Below are positions 30,932 to 39,686 of a DNA stretch of 64,000 nucleotides, piece after piece; position 1 is the first letter of the stretch; every line of letters starts with the position of its first letter. This DNA is from Nitrospirota bacterium (GTDB taxonomy: Bacteria; Nitrospirota; JACRHL01): positions 1 through 64,000 of the forward strand of contig JAOUFN010000011.1 of the NCBI GenBank assembly GCA_029858285.1, given 5' to 3'. The position numbers and the translations under genes are program-made. Under the pieces are notes generated by a model that did not search any database, was not told where the DNA came from, and saw nothing but the letters and a program-made list of their open reading frames with translations.

Positions 30932-31870
30932 ATGCGTGTCGTCTTCATGGGCACCCCCCCGATTGCCGTGCCATCCCTGCTGGGGCTGATCGGCGCCGGA
31001 TACCGGGTGGTGGCCGTGGTCACCCAGCCGGACCGCCCCAAGGGACGAGGCGGAAAACTGGCCGCCCCTCCGGTCAAGGAGAGCGCGGCGGCCCTGCACG
31101 TTCCGGTGTTGCAGCCGCCCCGGGTGCGCGACGAGGGGTTCCAGCAGCACATCCGCGAACTGGCGCCAGATGTGGCCGTGGTCATCGCTTTCGGACAGAT
31201 TCTGCCCCAGTCGCTGCTTGACATCCCCCGATTCGGATGCATAAACGTCCATGCCAGCCTGCTGCCACGATATCGGGGGGCGGCACCCATCAACTGGGCC
31301 ATCGCCAACGGTGAGACCGAAACCGGGCTCACCACCATGCGCATGGACGCGGGCATGGATACCGGCCCGACCTACCTCACGGCGTCCACCCCCATCGGCG
31401 CCGGCGAGGACGCCGTGTCCCTGGCGGGACGGCTGGGAGAATTGGCGGTGCCCCTGTTGCTGGACACATTGCGACAGGTGGGCCAGGGGTTGCAGCCGAC
31501 GCCCCAGGACGTCGCCCGGGCCACCCTGGCGCCGATCCTGCGCAAGGAGGATGGGGGGTTGCACTGGGAGTGGCCTGCGGCGCGCCTGGTCAACCATGTG
31601 CGGGCATTCGTGCCGTGGCCCGGCAGCCACACCCGTTATGCGGACACACCGTGGCGGGTCACCGCCGCCCGGGCAGGCGAGCCGGACGCCAGCGCCGCCG
31701 CCCCCGGAACCCTGTTGCGGGTGGACGGCGACAGCCTGCTGGTGCGGGCGGGAGAAGGCAGCACGGTGCGCATTCTGGCCTTGCAGGTGCCGGGCAAGCG
31801 TCCCATGCCGGTGCGGGATTTTTTGAACGGCACCCGGATCGAGCCCGGCGTGGTGCTGGGGGCCGGATAA
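30932..31870 (+). CDS. fmt: methionyl-tRNA formyltransferase
   Basis: Formylates initiator Met-tRNA. 312 residues; VVFMGTPPIAVPSL opens the fold, the catalytic block is INVHASLLPRYRGAAPINWAI and the C-terminal tRNA-binding domain runs from about residue 205. A run of ten C then TTTT (30898-30911) sits between def and fmt. Confidence 0.95.
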   Translation: MRVVFMGTPPIAVPSLLGLIGAGYRVVAVVTQPDRPKGRGGKLAAPPVKESAAALHVPVLQPPRVRDEGFQQHIRELAPDVAVVIAFGQILPQSLLDIPRFGCINVHASLLPRYRGAAPINWAIANGETETGLTTMRMDAGMDTGPTYLTASTPIGAGEDAVSLAGRLGELAVPLLLDTLRQVGQGLQPTPQDVARATLAPILRKEDGGLHWEWPAARLVNHVRAFVPWPGSHTRYADTPWRVTAARAGEPDASAAAPGTLLRVDGDSLLVRAGEGSTVRILALQVPGKRPMPVRDFLNGTRIEPGVVLGAG

Positions 31871-32932: not shown

Positions 32933-34381
32933 ATGACGGCATCTCGTCCCCGGCGGCCCGCCCGTCCACCCGACGGTCGCCGGGGTGCGGGCTCTGCGGC
33001 GGCGGGTTCCCCCCCGGACACTCCTGATCCCCGGCGCACCGCTCTGGCCCTGCTGACGCGGCTGGACCGGGAGCCGTTCGATCTCTCGGCGGCCCTCGAC
33101 ATGGCCTTCCGCGAGGGGGCGTGGGACTCCCGCGACCGGGGGCTGGCGGCGGAACTCACCCGGGGCACCGCCCGCTGGCGCCACCGGCTGGATTACGCTA
33201 TCCGCCAGCGCACCGGCCGCCCCCTCAAGGATCTGGACCGCTCCGTGCGCACCTTGCTGCGCCTGGGGGCCTATCAACTGCTGTTTTTGTCTCGCATTCC
33301 TGCTTCTGCCGCAGTCAACGAGACGGTGCATCTGGCGGGGGACCGCCGCCGCCGGGACTTCGTCAACGGTGTGCTGCGCGCCCTGGCCCGGGAAGGCGAA
33401 CCGCCCCTGCCGCCGGGCGGGGTAGAGCGGCTGGCGGTGGAGTGGTCCCTGCCGCGCTGGCTGGCGGAACGCTGGTGGCAACAACACGGCCCGGAAGGAG
33501 CTGCCCTGCGCGCCGAAAACGCCGCCCGCACCCCGGCCCTGACCCTGCGACTCACCGCTTCCGATTCCTCTCCCGGCCAGCGTGAGGATTACATTGCCCG
33601 TTGCGCCGCCATGGGGGTGGCCGCCGAGGCGGTGGAATTTCTGCCCGATGCCGTGCGTCTGCCCGACGCTGCCCCGGTGGCCGACCTGCCCGGCTATGCT
33701 GCGGGGGAATTCGTGGTACAGGATGCCGCCAGTCAGCTGGCCGGGCTGCTCGGCGGCGCCCGGCCCGGAGAACAGGTGCTGGACGCCTGCGCCGCCCCCG
33801 GTGGCAAGTGCGCAGGGCTGGCGGCGGCGGTGGGCCCTGGCGGCTCGGTGCTGGCGGTGGAGCGGGATGCCGGACGCATCCGCCGCCTGTCCATCAACCT
33901 CGAACGCCTGCGCCTGAAGCAGGTGACGGTGCTGGAGGCGGATGCCGCCTCCCTCCCCCCCGAGGTGGCGCGACAGACCTTCGACCGCGTGTTTCTCGAC
34001 GCCCCCTGCTCCGGGCTGGGCACCCTGGCGCGTCATCCGGAGGGCAAGTGGTGGAAATCCGTGGACGGCATCCGCGCCTGCGCCGACTCCCAAGCGGCCT
34101 TGCTGGCGCATCTGGCACCCAGGGTGCGGCCGGGGGGCAGTCTGGTGTACGCCGTGTGTACCGGGGAGCCGGAAGAAACCATCCAGCCGGTGGCGGTATT
34201 TTTGGCCACCCATCCGGAATTTCACACGGTCCCCGCCGGTGAGGTGTTCGCAGCCCTCGGCGAGCGAGGGCCGGGGGACGTGGCGGCGCCGTGGGTCACC
34301 CCCAACGGTGAACTGGACACCCACGGCAACCGCGTGGGCATGGACGGCTTCTTTGCCGTCCACCTCCGGCGCAAGTCGTGA
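32933..34381 (+). CDS. rsmB: 16S rRNA m5C967 methyltransferase
   Basis: 482 residues: a basic Pro/Arg-rich leader (~1-35), a NusB-like RNA-binding domain (~35-170) and a Rossmann methyltransferase. SAM is bound by LDACAAPGGKC; the two catalytic cysteines are C359 in DAPCSGLG (motif IV) and C409 in YAVCTGEPEE (motif VI). The gene continues the def-fmt-htpX strand and precedes rpe. Confidence 0.93.
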   Translation: MTASRPRRPARPPDGRRGAGSAAAGSPPDTPDPRRTALALLTRLDREPFDLSAALDMAFREGAWDSRDRGLAAELTRGTARWRHRLDYAIRQRTGRPLKDLDRSVRTLLRLGAYQLLFLSRIPASAAVNETVHLAGDRRRRDFVNGVLRALAREGEPPLPPGGVERLAVEWSLPRWLAERWWQQHGPEGAALRAENAARTPALTLRLTASDSSPGQREDYIARCAAMGVAAEAVEFLPDAVRLPDAAPVADLPGYAAGEFVVQDAASQLAGLLGGARPGEQVLDACAAPGGKCAGLAAAVGPGGSVLAVERDAGRIRRLSINLERLRLKQVTVLEADAASLPPEVARQTFDRVFLDAPCSGLGTLARHPEGKWWKSVDGIRACADSQAALLAHLAPRVRPGGSLVYAVCTGEPEETIQPVAVFLATHPEFHTVPAGEVFAALGERGPGDVAAPWVTPNGELDTHGNRVGMDGFFAVHLRRKS

Positions 34382-34416: not shown

Positions 34417-35100
34417 GTGTTTACCAAGGATCATAAGCTGATCGCGCCCTCCATCCTGTCCGCCGACTTCGCGCGTCTGGCCGAGGAAGTGGCCGCCGTC
34501 GAGGCGGCGGGCGCCGACGTGATTCACGTGGACGTGATGGACGGCCATTTTGTGCCCAACCTTACCATCGGGCCGGTGGTGGTGGAGTGGCTGCGCAAGG
34601 TCACCCGGCTGCCCCTCGACTGCCACCTGATGATTACCGATCCGGACCGCTATATCGGCGAGTTTGTCGCCGCCGGGGCCGACTGCATCACCGTGCATCA
34701 GGAGGCCTGTCCGCACCTGCACCGCACCGTGCAGTTGATCCGTGAGGAGGGAGCAAAGGCGGGCCGCAAGGTGATGACCGGCGTGTCCATCAATCCCGCC
34801 ACCCCGGTGGAAACCCTGTCGGAAATCCTGCCGGACTGCGATCTGGTGCTGATCATGTCGGTTAATCCCGGCTTTGGCGGCCAGAAATTCATCCCCGGCG
34901 CCCTGGACAAGGTGCGCCGACTGCGGCGCATGGTGGACGAGCGCCGCCTGTCCACCTACATCGAGATTGACGGCGGCATCAAGGCCGACAACATTGCCCA
35001 GGTGGCCAAGGCCGGGGTGGATGTGTTCGTGGCCGGTTCCGCCGTGTTCAACGCGGACGACTACGGCGCCTCCATCGGCGCCCTGAAGGCCGCCGTCTGA
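34417..35100 (+). CDS. rpe: ribulose-phosphate 3-epimerase
   Basis: Interconverts ribulose 5-phosphate and xylulose 5-phosphate. TIM barrel of 227 residues: IAPSILSADFARL, VDVMDGHFVPNLT (metal-binding His and Asp), LDCHLMI, VNPGFGGQKF and EIDGGIK. Starts with GTG at 34417, 36 bases after rsmB. Confidence 0.96.
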   Translation: MFTKDHKLIAPSILSADFARLAEEVAAVEAAGADVIHVDVMDGHFVPNLTIGPVVVEWLRKVTRLPLDCHLMITDPDRYIGEFVAAGADCITVHQEACPHLHRTVQLIREEGAKAGRKVMTGVSINPATPVETLSEILPDCDLVLIMSVNPGFGGQKFIPGALDKVRRLRRMVDERRLSTYIEIDGGIKADNIAQVAKAGVDVFVAGSAVFNADDYGASIGALKAAV

Positions 35101-35203: not shown

Positions 35204-36781
35204 ATGAATCGTCCCGGCGCCGAAACCCTGGTGGCCAGCCTGCACCCGCTGGAAGTGGCGGTGATCCAGGCCCTGTCCCGCATTCGCGAGGCCAGCGACA
35301 CGGAACTGGCTGAGGCTGCCGGGCTGGACGCCGCGCGCCGCGACATGGCCTGCGGCTGGCTGGTGGAAAAGGGCGTGGTCGAGATCATCGGCGAAAGCGT
35401 GGCGCACCGCGTCAGCCTCACCGAAATCGGCACACGCTATGCCCGCATGGGTACGCCGGAGACCCGTATCGTGCAGGCCCTGCGCGCCGGACGCGCCATC
35501 ACCATGGCCTCCCTTGAGCAGGACCTGGAGATGGAACAGTCCGAGGCCGGCACCGCAGTGGGTGCCCTCAAGAAGGCGGCGGTGGTGACCGCCGGCAGCG
35601 GCGGCGTGCTGGAGATTGTGCCCGGCGCCGACCTGTCCGCGTTCGAGACCGTCGCCGCGCTGATTTCCCATGTGGCCACCGCAGGTGAGGTTGGTCTGGA
35701 GGGGCTGCCCGACACCCAGCGGCAGGCCCTGGATGGCCTGCACCGCAAACGCGGCAAGGCCAAGGGGGTGTTCCGGGTAGACGAGCAGCGCACCCGTACC
35801 TATGCCCTCACCCCCCTTGGGCAGGAGGTGGGAACCCTGACCCGTGACCGTTCCGGCGCCGCCGAAATCGGTCAGCTCACCTCCCAGATGCTGGCGGACG
35901 GCAGTTGGAAGGACAAGGATTTCCGGCGCTACAACATCGCCCTCAAGCCGCCCCGCGTAACCATGGGGCGCAAGCACCCTTACCGGGCCTATCTGGATAA
36001 CGTCAAGGCCAAGATGGTGGGTATGGGTTTTCGGCAGATGACCTCGTCGCTGGTGCAGAACGAGTTCTGGAACAACGACGCCCTGTTTATGCCCCAGTTC
36101 CACCCGGCACGGGACATCCACGACGCCTATTTCGTGTCGGAACCCAAGCACAGCAAGCCAATCTCCGAGCCGTTCTTCTCCGCCGTCGCCAAGGTGCATG
36201 CGGACGGTGGCGACACCGGCTCCACCGGCTGGAACTACCGTTTTCGCGAGATGCAGTCCCGGCGCCTGGTGTTGCGCAGCCAGGGGACGGCGGACTCCGC
36301 CCACAAGCTGGCCGAGGGGCCGGACGTGCCCGGCAAGTATTTTTCGATCGCCCGCTGCTTCCGCTACGATCAGGTGGACGCCACCCACGCCCCGGATTTT
36401 TTTCAGGTGGAGGGCATCGTGCTGGGGGAGGGTATCCACTTCCGCACCCTGCTCGGGCTGCTCAAACTGTTCGCCCGCGAACTGGCCCGCGCCGAACAGG
36501 TCAAATTCGTGCCCGCCTACTTCCCGTTTACCGAGCCGTCCGTAGAAATCCACGCCCGCCACCCCAAACTGGGCTGGATCGAACTGGGCGGTGCCGGTCT
36601 GTTCCGCCCCGAGGTCACCCGTCCGCTGGGGGTCACCACCCCGGTCATCGCCTGGGGTCTGGGGCTTGACCGCATGGCCATGGTGGCCCTCAACATCCAC
36701 GACATCCGCGACCTGTTTTCCAGCGACCTGGACCTGATCCGCACCACCCGTGGCGTGGCCGGAACCAGCGGCGGAGCCTAG
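35204..36781 (+). CDS. pheS: phenylalanyl-tRNA synthetase alpha subunit, archaeal/eukaryotic type
   Basis: 525 residues, against ~330 for the usual bacterial PheS. Residues ~1-215 form a winged-helix-rich N-terminal region (HPLEVAVIQALSRIREASD) like that of archaeal and cytosolic alpha subunits. The class II core follows: NEFWNNDALFMPQFHPARD, the RCFRYDQVDATHAPDFFQVEG motif 2 region, and motif 3 in WGLGLDRMAM. pheT starts nine bases downstream. The gene pair is thus foreign in type for a proteobacterium, though base use looks like its neighbours. Confidence 0.93.
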   Translation: MNRPGAETLVASLHPLEVAVIQALSRIREASDTELAEAAGLDAARRDMACGWLVEKGVVEIIGESVAHRVSLTEIGTRYARMGTPETRIVQALRAGRAITMASLEQDLEMEQSEAGTAVGALKKAAVVTAGSGGVLEIVPGADLSAFETVAALISHVATAGEVGLEGLPDTQRQALDGLHRKRGKAKGVFRVDEQRTRTYALTPLGQEVGTLTRDRSGAAEIGQLTSQMLADGSWKDKDFRRYNIALKPPRVTMGRKHPYRAYLDNVKAKMVGMGFRQMTSSLVQNEFWNNDALFMPQFHPARDIHDAYFVSEPKHSKPISEPFFSAVAKVHADGGDTGSTGWNYRFREMQSRRLVLRSQGTADSAHKLAEGPDVPGKYFSIARCFRYDQVDATHAPDFFQVEGIVLGEGIHFRTLLGLLKLFARELARAEQVKFVPAYFPFTEPSVEIHARHPKLGWIELGGAGLFRPEVTRPLGVTTPVIAWGLGLDRMAMVALNIHDIRDLFSSDLDLIRTTRGVAGTSGGA

Positions 36782-36790
36782 GGGGGAAGC

Positions 36791-38482
36791 ATGCCGACCG
36801 TCACCGTACACCGCGACGACGTCGAAAAGCTGCTCGGCCAGCCGTTCGACGCTGACGTGTTCGAGAGCCTGCTGGAACTGGTCAAGGGCGAACTCGACGA
36901 CGTGGATGCCGCCACCGGCGAGATCCGCGTCGAACTCAACGACACCAACCGCCCCGACCTGTGGTGCGTGGAGGGCATCTGTCGTCAGTTGCGCATCCAC
37001 CGCGAACAGCGCCCCCGGGACTATGCGTTCTTCGACGCCACCGCGCCGGAAGCGCTGGACATGCGCGAGATCCGTATCGACCCCACGGTGAACGAGGTGC
37101 GTCCCTACATCGGCGCCTGCATCGCCCGTGGCGTGGTGGTGGACGACAAGCTGCTGGCGCAGTTGATCCAGACCCAGGAAAAAATCTGCGACGTGTTTGG
37201 CCGCAAGCGCAAGAGCATCGCCATTGGCATCTATGCGGCGGACAAACTGCAATTCCCCCTGCACTACCGTGGCGTGCCCCCCTCCGAGGGCGCCTTTGTG
37301 CCGCTGGGGATGAATGAGCCCCTGACCCTGGAGCAGATCGCCACCATGCACCCCAAGGGGCAGCAATATGCCCCCATCGTGGCGCGCCACGGCCTGTGGC
37401 CGCTGTTGCTGGACGATGCGGGCACGGTGCTGTCGTTCCCGCCGGTCATCAACAGCACCACCGTGGGCGAGGTGCGCGAGGGTGACAGCGAACTGTTCCT
37501 CGAAGTCACCGGCACCGACCTGCGCATGGTCACCCTGGTGGTCAACATTCTGGCGGCCAACATGGCCGACCGGGGCGCCAGCATCGAGCCGGTGCGCAGC
37601 GTCTATCCGGAGGCCACCCCCTTTGGCCGTCAGGTGGTGACGCCGCGCCATTTGAAACGCACCATGTCCGTGCCCTGCCACGCCTTTTTCCGCGCCCTGG
37701 GTGAGACGGTCTCCGGCGCCGACCTGCAGCGCGAACTGAGCGCCTACGGCTATCGGGTGGAGAACACCGCCGACTCGGTGCGGGTGGTGGTGCCGCCCTA
37801 CCGCGACGACATCCTGCACCCGGTGGACGTGATCGAGGATTTCGCCATCTCCCGCGGTTACGAGCAGTTCTCCCCGGAGATGCCATCGGAGTTCACCGTG
37901 GGCGGCCTGTTGCCGCTGGAAAATCTCTCCGACCGGGTGCGCGACCTGATGGTCGGCATGGGTTATCAGGAGGTGCTGTCCAACATTCTGGTGGGGCGCG
38001 AGGAATTGACCGACCACATGGAACTGCACGGCGCTGCCCTGGTTTCCGTGTCCAACGTGATGACCGCGTCCTACAGCGTGCTGCGCAACGCCGTGTTGCC
38101 CTCCCTGCTCAAAGTGGAGCAGCAAAGTGGCCGCGCCTTTTACCCCCACTCCCTGTTCGAGGTGGGGGAAGTGGCGCGCATGCAGGCCGATTCCCCCATG
38201 GGCAGCGAAACCCGCACCCAGATGGCGGTGCTGCTGGCCCACGCCGAGGCGAACTTCTCGGAATTGGCATCGCGTCTGGAGATGCTCTGCTTCTACCTGG
38301 GCATCTCGTACCAGTTGGAGCCGGTGGACCACGCCTCCTACATCCCCGGCCGCGCCGGGCGCATCGTGGTGAACCGCGATGCCATCGGCATCATCGGCGA
38401 ACTGTCGCCGGAGGTGCTGGAAAACTGGAAGATCACCGTCCCCTGCGCCGCCTTCGAACTCGATCTCAGCGCCTTGATCTAG
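36791..38482 (+). CDS. pheT: phenylalanyl-tRNA synthetase beta subunit, archaeal/eukaryotic type
   Basis: 563 residues, against ~800 in ordinary bacteria. It begins MPTVTVHRDDVEKLLGQ and IRVELNDTNRPDLWCVEG as in archaeal beta subunits. It lacks the N-terminal EMAPII-like tRNA-binding domain and the C-terminal anticodon-binding (FDX-ACB) domain of the bacterial form; the B3/B4 editing region and B5 domain (PPYRDDILHPVDVIEDFAI) are present. GGGGGAAGC precedes the ATG. A GC hairpin CCCCCCG/CGGGGGG follows the stop (38483-38500). Confidence 0.93.
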   Translation: MPTVTVHRDDVEKLLGQPFDADVFESLLELVKGELDDVDAATGEIRVELNDTNRPDLWCVEGICRQLRIHREQRPRDYAFFDATAPEALDMREIRIDPTVNEVRPYIGACIARGVVVDDKLLAQLIQTQEKICDVFGRKRKSIAIGIYAADKLQFPLHYRGVPPSEGAFVPLGMNEPLTLEQIATMHPKGQQYAPIVARHGLWPLLLDDAGTVLSFPPVINSTTVGEVREGDSELFLEVTGTDLRMVTLVVNILAANMADRGASIEPVRSVYPEATPFGRQVVTPRHLKRTMSVPCHAFFRALGETVSGADLQRELSAYGYRVENTADSVRVVVPPYRDDILHPVDVIEDFAISRGYEQFSPEMPSEFTVGGLLPLENLSDRVRDLMVGMGYQEVLSNILVGREELTDHMELHGAALVSVSNVMTASYSVLRNAVLPSLLKVEQQSGRAFYPHSLFEVGEVARMQADSPMGSETRTQMAVLLAHAEANFSELASRLEMLCFYLGISYQLEPVDHASYIPGRAGRIVVNRDAIGIIGELSPEVLENWKITVPCAAFELDLSALI

Positions 38483-38500: not shown

Positions 38501-38603
38501 AGGCGGGGGAGGGCTACGGGAAGGACCGGAAAAAGCCGGGCAGACCGGTGTGGCAAGTGCAGTTTTCCGACCTTAACCATTGCAATCCGGCGGAGAATCT
38601 CCC

Positions 38604-39686
38604 ATGAGCGATGTATCCCTGTTTGAACCGGACAGCGTGGGGGACATCTCCCTGTGCAACCGCGTGGTCATGGCCCCCATGACGCGCAACCGGGCGGACG
38701 CCCAGGGCGTTCCCCTGCCGTGCGTGGCCACCTACTACACCCAGCGGGCCACCGCCGGGCTGATCATCTCCGAGGCCGTCGCCGTCTGCCGTCAGGGATC
38801 GGGGTATTCCCTCATTCCCGGCATCTGGACCGATGCCCAGGAGGCGGCCTGGAAAAAGGTCATCGCGGCGGTGCACCAGGCCGGGGGCAAGTTTGTCCTG
38901 CAACTGATGCACACCGGGCGCATTGCCCACTCCTCCCTGACCGGCGAAACCCCCGTTTCCGCCTCCGCCATCGTGCCGGAGGGGACGGTAATGGCCGCCG
39001 ATTTTTCCTGGCAACCCTTCGAAACCCCGGTGGCGCTGGACGAGGCGGGCATTGGCGCGGTGGTCGAGGCGTTTGCGCGGGCGTCGGCCCGCGCCATCCG
39101 TGCCGGGGCCGACGGGGTAGAGATTCACGGCGCCAACGGCTACCTTCCCGACCAGTTTTTGCGCACCGGCAGCAACATCCGCAGCGACGGCTGGGGCGGT
39201 TCCCCGGCGGGGCGCAGCCGCCTTTTGCTGGAGATTACCCGTGCGGTGAGCGAGGCGGCGGGGGCGGCGCGCACCGGGGTACGCCTGTCGCCATGGAACC
39301 CGTTCAACGGCATGAGCGACCGCAATCCGGGCATCACCTTCCGCGACACGGCGGAGCGGCTGGCGCGCTTCCGGCTGGCCTACCTGCACATAAACGAGGC
39401 GGGGGCGCCGAATCCGGCCCCCGGCCCTCAACAGCTTACCCGCGACATGGCGCGGGTGTTTGGCGGGCGGGTGCTGATCAATGCGGGTTACGACGCGGAG
39501 CGCGCCCGGCTCGCGCTGGAGGACCGGGTGGCCAACGTGGCCGGGGTGGTGTTCGGGGTGCCGTTCATTGCCAACCCCGATCTGGTGCGGCGCCTGAAGG
39601 AGGATATCCCCCTGGCTGCCGCCGACCCTGCCACCTTCTACGGCGGGGGGGAAAAGGGGTATACGGACTATCCGGCTGCGCCGTAA
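38604..39686 (+). CDS. nemA: old yellow enzyme-type alkene reductase
   Basis: FMN/NADPH ene-reductase of the NemA/OYE family, 360 residues. NRVVMAPMTRNRA opens the barrel; the substrate-binding pair His175 and Asn178 is in EIHGANGYLPDQFL; GVRLSPWNPFNGM and YTDYPA close the active site. It may detoxify quinones, nitro-esters or N-ethylmaleimide-like electrophiles. ATG 38604 has GGCGGAGAA upstream; it stands as a single gene. NemR or another regulator is not seen nearby. Confidence 0.9.
   Translation: MSDVSLFEPDSVGDISLCNRVVMAPMTRNRADAQGVPLPCVATYYTQRATAGLIISEAVAVCRQGSGYSLIPGIWTDAQEAAWKKVIAAVHQAGGKFVLQLMHTGRIAHSSLTGETPVSASAIVPEGTVMAADFSWQPFETPVALDEAGIGAVVEAFARASARAIRAGADGVEIHGANGYLPDQFLRTGSNIRSDGWGGSPAGRSRLLLEITRAVSEAAGAARTGVRLSPWNPFNGMSDRNPGITFRDTAERLARFRLAYLHINEAGAPNPAPGPQQLTRDMARVFGGRVLINAGYDAERARLALEDRVANVAGVVFGVPFIANPDLVRRLKEDIPLAAADPATFYGGGEKGYTDYPAAP

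Follow-up and report, generated by a model that had tools for sequence, protein, structure and literature searches.

Does a member of the Nitrospirota charge its phenylalanine tRNA with an enzyme of archaeal type and, if so, where did this enzyme come from and what became of the bacterial one? The question arises from two neighbouring genes located on the + strand of the window, as we call the whole 64,000-nucleotide stretch of DNA analysed here. The pheS gene (35204-36781) encodes a protein of 525 amino acids (aa), and pheT (36791-38482), which begins after a spacing of nine bases, encodes one of 563 aa. A sequence-only reading had described two open reading frames of these lengths at 35204-38482, and the frames match that description. 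It had taken them for the two subunits of an archaeal/eukaryotic-type phenylalanyl-tRNA synthetase (PheRS) and had proposed an old transfer with replacement of the bacterial enzyme.

Curated models agree on the type of both subunits. PheS exceeds the archaeal-type curated cut-off of the NCBIfam model PRK04172/NF003210 (4.8e-165, 550 bits, cut-off 350), and its class II core is recognized by the Pfam model PF01409 (4.7e-81). PheT is above the cut-off of TIGR00471, pheT_arch (4e-146, 488 bits, cut-off 283), and far under that of TIGR00472, pheT_bact (1.3e-35, 123 bits, cut-off 403); it also matches PF18262, PF03484 and PF17759. The closest solved structures are those of eukaryotic cytosolic PheRS and of Pyrococcus horikoshii PheT, the match to the latter starting at residue 1. 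Scores against curated models, domain content and the structures of relatives all identify PheS and PheT as subunits of the archaeal/eukaryotic type. An ordinary bacterial-type PheRS, with a beta subunit of about 800 aa bearing B2 and FDX-ACB and an alpha subunit of about 330 aa, was ruled out by the model scores, the domains and the trees described below.

The winged-helix-type N-terminus previously ascribed to PheS finds support in a sub-threshold match to PF10771 (residues 20-55) and in the predicted fold, in which residues 1-220 form three helix-turn-helix/winged modules. The confidence of this model is a mean pLDDT of 75, with residues 11-180 mostly at 78-93, and its top PDB match is the human PheS chain C (519 alignment columns). 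As the core was modelled less well, global TM-scores are low and more weight was given to the sequence evidence: the class II catalytic core comprises residues 243-514, and the synthetase residues R387, H395, Q401 and E403, together with the G485-R490 region, are invariant in a 29-row alignment. On the predicted fold, PheS is an alpha subunit built in the archaeal/eukaryotic way, about 500 aa long and with N-terminal winged/helix-turn-helix modules replacing the coiled coil.

In PheT, Pfam recognizes only B1, B5 and the catalytic-like module. Neither B2 (EMAPII-like, PF01588) nor B8 (FDX-ACB, PF03147) was detected by Pfam, both of which appear in the control locus L292; the EMAPII-like and anticodon-binding domains said earlier to be missing from this protein are therefore absent also when domain searches are run for them. 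Pfam gives no match to its B3_4 model either, and it was plausible to suspect that editing had been lost. This was ruled out, as PheT can be aligned over the full length of 2cxi, the structure of the P. horikoshii editing domain (residues 1-348), and keeps L202, S211 and T236, while D234 is replaced by Glu. These four are residues that we take to form the editing active site of the P. horikoshii protein. Going by this alignment, PheT has a B3/4 editing domain with its active-site residues.

Together the two proteins would assemble into an (alpha-beta)2 enzyme, a view that draws here on the adjacency and joint inheritance of the genes, with catalysis in the alpha core and with Tyr-tRNA-Phe presumably edited in B3/4 of beta. 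The N-terminal winged modules of alpha may take over the tRNA recognition served by B2 and B8 in bacterial enzymes, as extrapolated from the family (PMC3275996). In this architecture the pair is like archaeal and eukaryotic cytosolic PheRS (human 3l4g, Candida 8s8b, P. horikoshii 2cxi), which share the N-terminal winged modules of alpha and a beta subunit that has B1, B3/4, B5 and the catalytic-like module but neither B2 nor B8. It is unlike them in having Phe for Tyr in the substrate pocket (YFPF) and Glu for Asp at the site of P. horikoshii D234.

The host genome (2.56 Mb, 57 contigs, 99.5% complete) holds one copy of PheS. A bacterial-type PheT over the cut-off was found nowhere in this 99.5% complete genome, nor was any FDX-ACB domain (PF03147). 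The earlier remark that no bacterial-type copy lies beside pheST thus extends to the genome as a whole, and the archaeal-type pair is its only PheRS.

To place the pair, a degenerate pattern was run over genomes of named species and returned 117 loci, mostly from archaea; the bacterial ones came from Nitrospirota, Planctomycetota, Fermentibacterota, WOR-3 and Myxococcota, with none from spirochaetes. More sequences from Bathyarchaeia, other Thermoproteota and Planctomycetota were included in the trees, and the joint PheS and PheT tree, rooted on bacterial-type PheRS, was calculated both as a careful tree and as a larger quick one. The PheS, PheT and joint trees are concordant, so that the two genes have been inherited together, and both subunits group with archaea, not within bacterial PheRS, as the sequence-only reading had anticipated. 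In the joint tree, a single bacterial clade (clade A, support 100/100) unites Nitrospirota with Fermentibacterota and a part of Planctomycetota; it is sister to a subset of Bathyarchaeia (BathyB, 100/99), and the two sit inside a Thermoproteota group (99/98). With about 1.8 changes per site on the long branch to the outgroup, the root within archaea is less certain than these support values imply, and some composition-biased rows were included. The phyla of clade A are not regarded as sisters, and because of this the pair may have been passed from bacterium to bacterium or imported several times from one unsampled archaeal lineage. Close relatives were not found in plasmid and viral collections.

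A second bacterial set, consisting of other Planctomycetota, Myxococcota, WOR-3 and one Fermentibacteria bin (among them L215, L217, L219, L074, L255 and L256), branches elsewhere among archaea; these, too, are archaeal-type PheRS in bacteria, but of separate origin. A tree constrained to unite the two sets is worse by 130 log-likelihood units and is rejected by the AU test (p 1.5e-9; 39 rows under LG+G4). Short motifs follow the same division. The substrate-pocket motif reads YFPF-TEP in most of clade A and in all sampled BathyB, and YFPY or FFPY in the second bacterial clade, BathyA and most other archaea; the first position of the [E]VTG editing motif is Glu in clade A and BathyB, and Asp in the second clade and most readable archaea. 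Among the sampled Planctomycetota (L215-L234), 23 of 149 genomes exceed the archaeal PheT cut-off, and they fall into two separate sub-types.

Archaeal PheRS in spirochaetes (Borrelia, Treponema, Spirochaeta) has been recognized for a long time, and its origin was assigned to a Thermococcales-like donor (Andam and Gogarten 2011, PMC3191353); its subunits there measure 513-528 aa (alpha) and 514-573 aa (beta) (PMC3191353). The pair described here is like the spirochaete one in its bacterial host, in the archaeal type and size of both subunits, in the replacement of the bacterial enzyme and in being clade-wide. It is unlike it in that the host belongs to Nitrospirota and the nearest sampled archaea are a subset of Bathyarchaeia rather than Thermococcales, the spirochaete side of this comparison coming from published trees only; both points refine the sequence-only reading, which had named spirochaetes as the well-known bacterial carriers. 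One might still assume a single event, in which a single archaeal PheRS was taken up by bacteria and spread to Nitrospirota as well as Spirochaetia, since clade A already crosses phyla and passing between bacteria is thus plausible. We consider this unlikely, however, as published trees group spirochaete PheRS with Thermococcales (PMC3191353) and, in our data, Pyrococcus PheT residues 1-348 fall, if weakly (78), outside clade A and BathyB. The kind of event is the one known from spirochaetes, and the Nitrospirota branch seems to derive from an archaeal source of its own. In the literature that we searched, with most subscription journals outside that search, no description of archaeal PheRS in Nitrospirota or Nitrospira was found.

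The direction of transfer may also be questioned, for the PheRS of Bathyarchaeia (L164-L193) falls into two or more unrelated lineages, of which one is close to clade A and another groups with Nitrososphaeria and Asgard archaea. If some Bathyarchaeia had received the pair from bacteria, the restriction of this type to a part of the class would be explained. Such a reversal is, in our opinion, very unlikely: BathyB is sister to the bacterial clade and not inside it (100/100 each), and both sit with other Thermoproteota.

Across 296 genomes of the phylum, PheT is of archaeal type in 164 and of bacterial type in 120, over curated cut-offs, and a comparison of the two model tables shows that the type sorts by family. 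In the PheS and PheT trees, Nitrospira moscoviensis (L097) falls among the Nitrospirota sequences, and both subunits of the phylum member G005 are identical to those of a Nitrospirota bacterium (L064). A patchy distribution across phyla is also what one would expect if both PheRS types had been present in a bacterial ancestor and were then differentially lost, with no recent archaeal donor. To this scenario we give very little credence, because no genome holding both PheT types was seen among the 296, and the place of clade A is within Thermoproteota, next to one subset of Bathyarchaeia, not at the base of Archaea. One Nitrospirota genome rated 100% complete (G121) gave no PheT match of either type.

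The bacterial-type PheRS of other Nitrospirota (for example L292 and L294) serves the same function in the same phylum, but it is only 23-29% identical to the present pair in the aligned parts, lies in a different gene context and carries Pfam B3_4 and FDX-ACB, unlike the PheT of the window. Most bacterial-type PheT proteins of the phylum are about 690-700 aa long and match TIGR00472 only from position ~157. That of L294 (genome G046) is without the EMAPII-like PF01588, which L292 has, and this difference points to three PheRS-beta forms within Nitrospirota.

The surroundings of pheST are bacterial. Upstream, on the same strand, lie fmt, encoding methionyl-tRNA formyltransferase (30932-31870; PF00551, PF02911), rsmB, encoding a 16S rRNA methyltransferase (32933-34381; PF01189, PF01029), and rpe, encoding ribulose-phosphate 3-epimerase (34417-35100; PF00834); dapD is a further bacterial gene of this neighbourhood. 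Downstream, also on the + strand, follows an old-yellow-enzyme family oxidoreductase (38580-39686; PF00724), which is present in L289 and was not found at the L290 or L291 loci. Two further genera of the family (L289, L290) and N. moscoviensis (L291) have these genes in the same order, fmt-rsmB-rpe-pheS-pheT, which indicates that pheST is old in this lineage and vertically inherited. Many bacteria keep pheST at the rplT locus, and in the bacterial-type L294 rplT is indeed directly upstream of it; no pheST remnant was detected at the infC-rpmI-rplT locus of the window's own genome, which lies on another contig. Together with the 164/120 split and the kept synteny, this makes the archaeal pair an old vertical trait of a part of the phylum, from which the bacterial genes are gone. 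That it is merely a mis-binned archaeal contig of a metagenome assembly is hardly conceivable, for although there are 57 contigs, pheST has bacterial genes around it (fmt, rsmB, rpe, dapD), the same order recurs in relatives and on the closed N. moscoviensis chromosome, and the genome has no other PheRS; contamination was ruled out by these bacterial neighbours and the synteny. In N. moscoviensis (L291, 8783-13296), the archaeal pheST stands tail-to-tail with infC-rpmI-rplT.

What, then, does the enzyme charge? The only tRNA-Phe(GAA) detected in the genome, among the 30 of 43 tRNA matches that were read as loci, has G34, A35, A36, A73, U20 and U59. U20 and U59 are bacterial identity bases, and in this, as in its bacterial host, the pair is unlike archaeal and eukaryotic cytosolic PheRS. 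According to a published review, archaeal/eukaryotic and bacterial PheRS/tRNA pairs do not cross-react (PMC3275996). As the tRNA keeps U20 and U59, either the imported enzyme has adapted to the resident bacterial tRNA-Phe, which is what probably happened after the import, or position 20 counts for less in this enzyme; this reading rests on one tRNA of one genome.

Taken as a whole, it is highly probable that this is a complete archaeal-type PheRS, the sole one of its genome, which charges tRNA-Phe(GAA) and was taken up once from near a Bathyarchaeia lineage, the bacterial pheST having been lost. Both genes would have arrived together, the donor being an archaeon that belonged to that Thermoproteota lineage or stood close to it. 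The recipient may have been the ancestor of one half of Nitrospirota, or else another bacterium, from which Nitrospirota, Planctomycetota and Fermentibacterota then acquired the pair; loss of the bacterial pheST would have followed the import. The trees, the either/or distribution in the phylum and the conserved synteny all back the old transfer and full replacement that had been suggested at the outset. We also think it likely that bacteria acquired archaeal-type PheRS two or more times from archaeal sources other than the published Thermococcales-like donor: from Bathyarchaeia-like Thermoproteota into half of Nitrospirota and parts of Planctomycetota and Fermentibacterota, and separately into other Planctomycetota, Myxococcota and WOR-3. 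In this Nitrospirota genome the enzyme would serve a tRNA-Phe whose identity bases are bacterial.

An essential two-gene translation enzyme would thus have been swapped between domains and fixed across about half of a phylum, for which it provides a clean shared derived character. What deserves attention is that the phylum is divided between two enzyme types, that a second bacterial set arose independently, that the donor appears to differ from the published one and that the tRNA is bacterial. The two bacterial sets would be further independent cases alongside the spirochaete one, and they offer natural test pairs for asking how archaeal PheRS came to accept bacterial tRNA-Phe despite the stated lack of cross-reaction (PMC3275996).

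Two minor observations concern other genomes of the survey. The WOR-3 bin behind L034 (G296) has two strong PheS-like matches, on contig C12 and at the end of C90, and may contain two copies or be a mixed bin. A Bathyarchaeota bin (G303) encodes, at L296 558-2162, a second PF01409 protein of 534 aa, which by sequence resembles O-phosphoseryl-tRNA synthetase.
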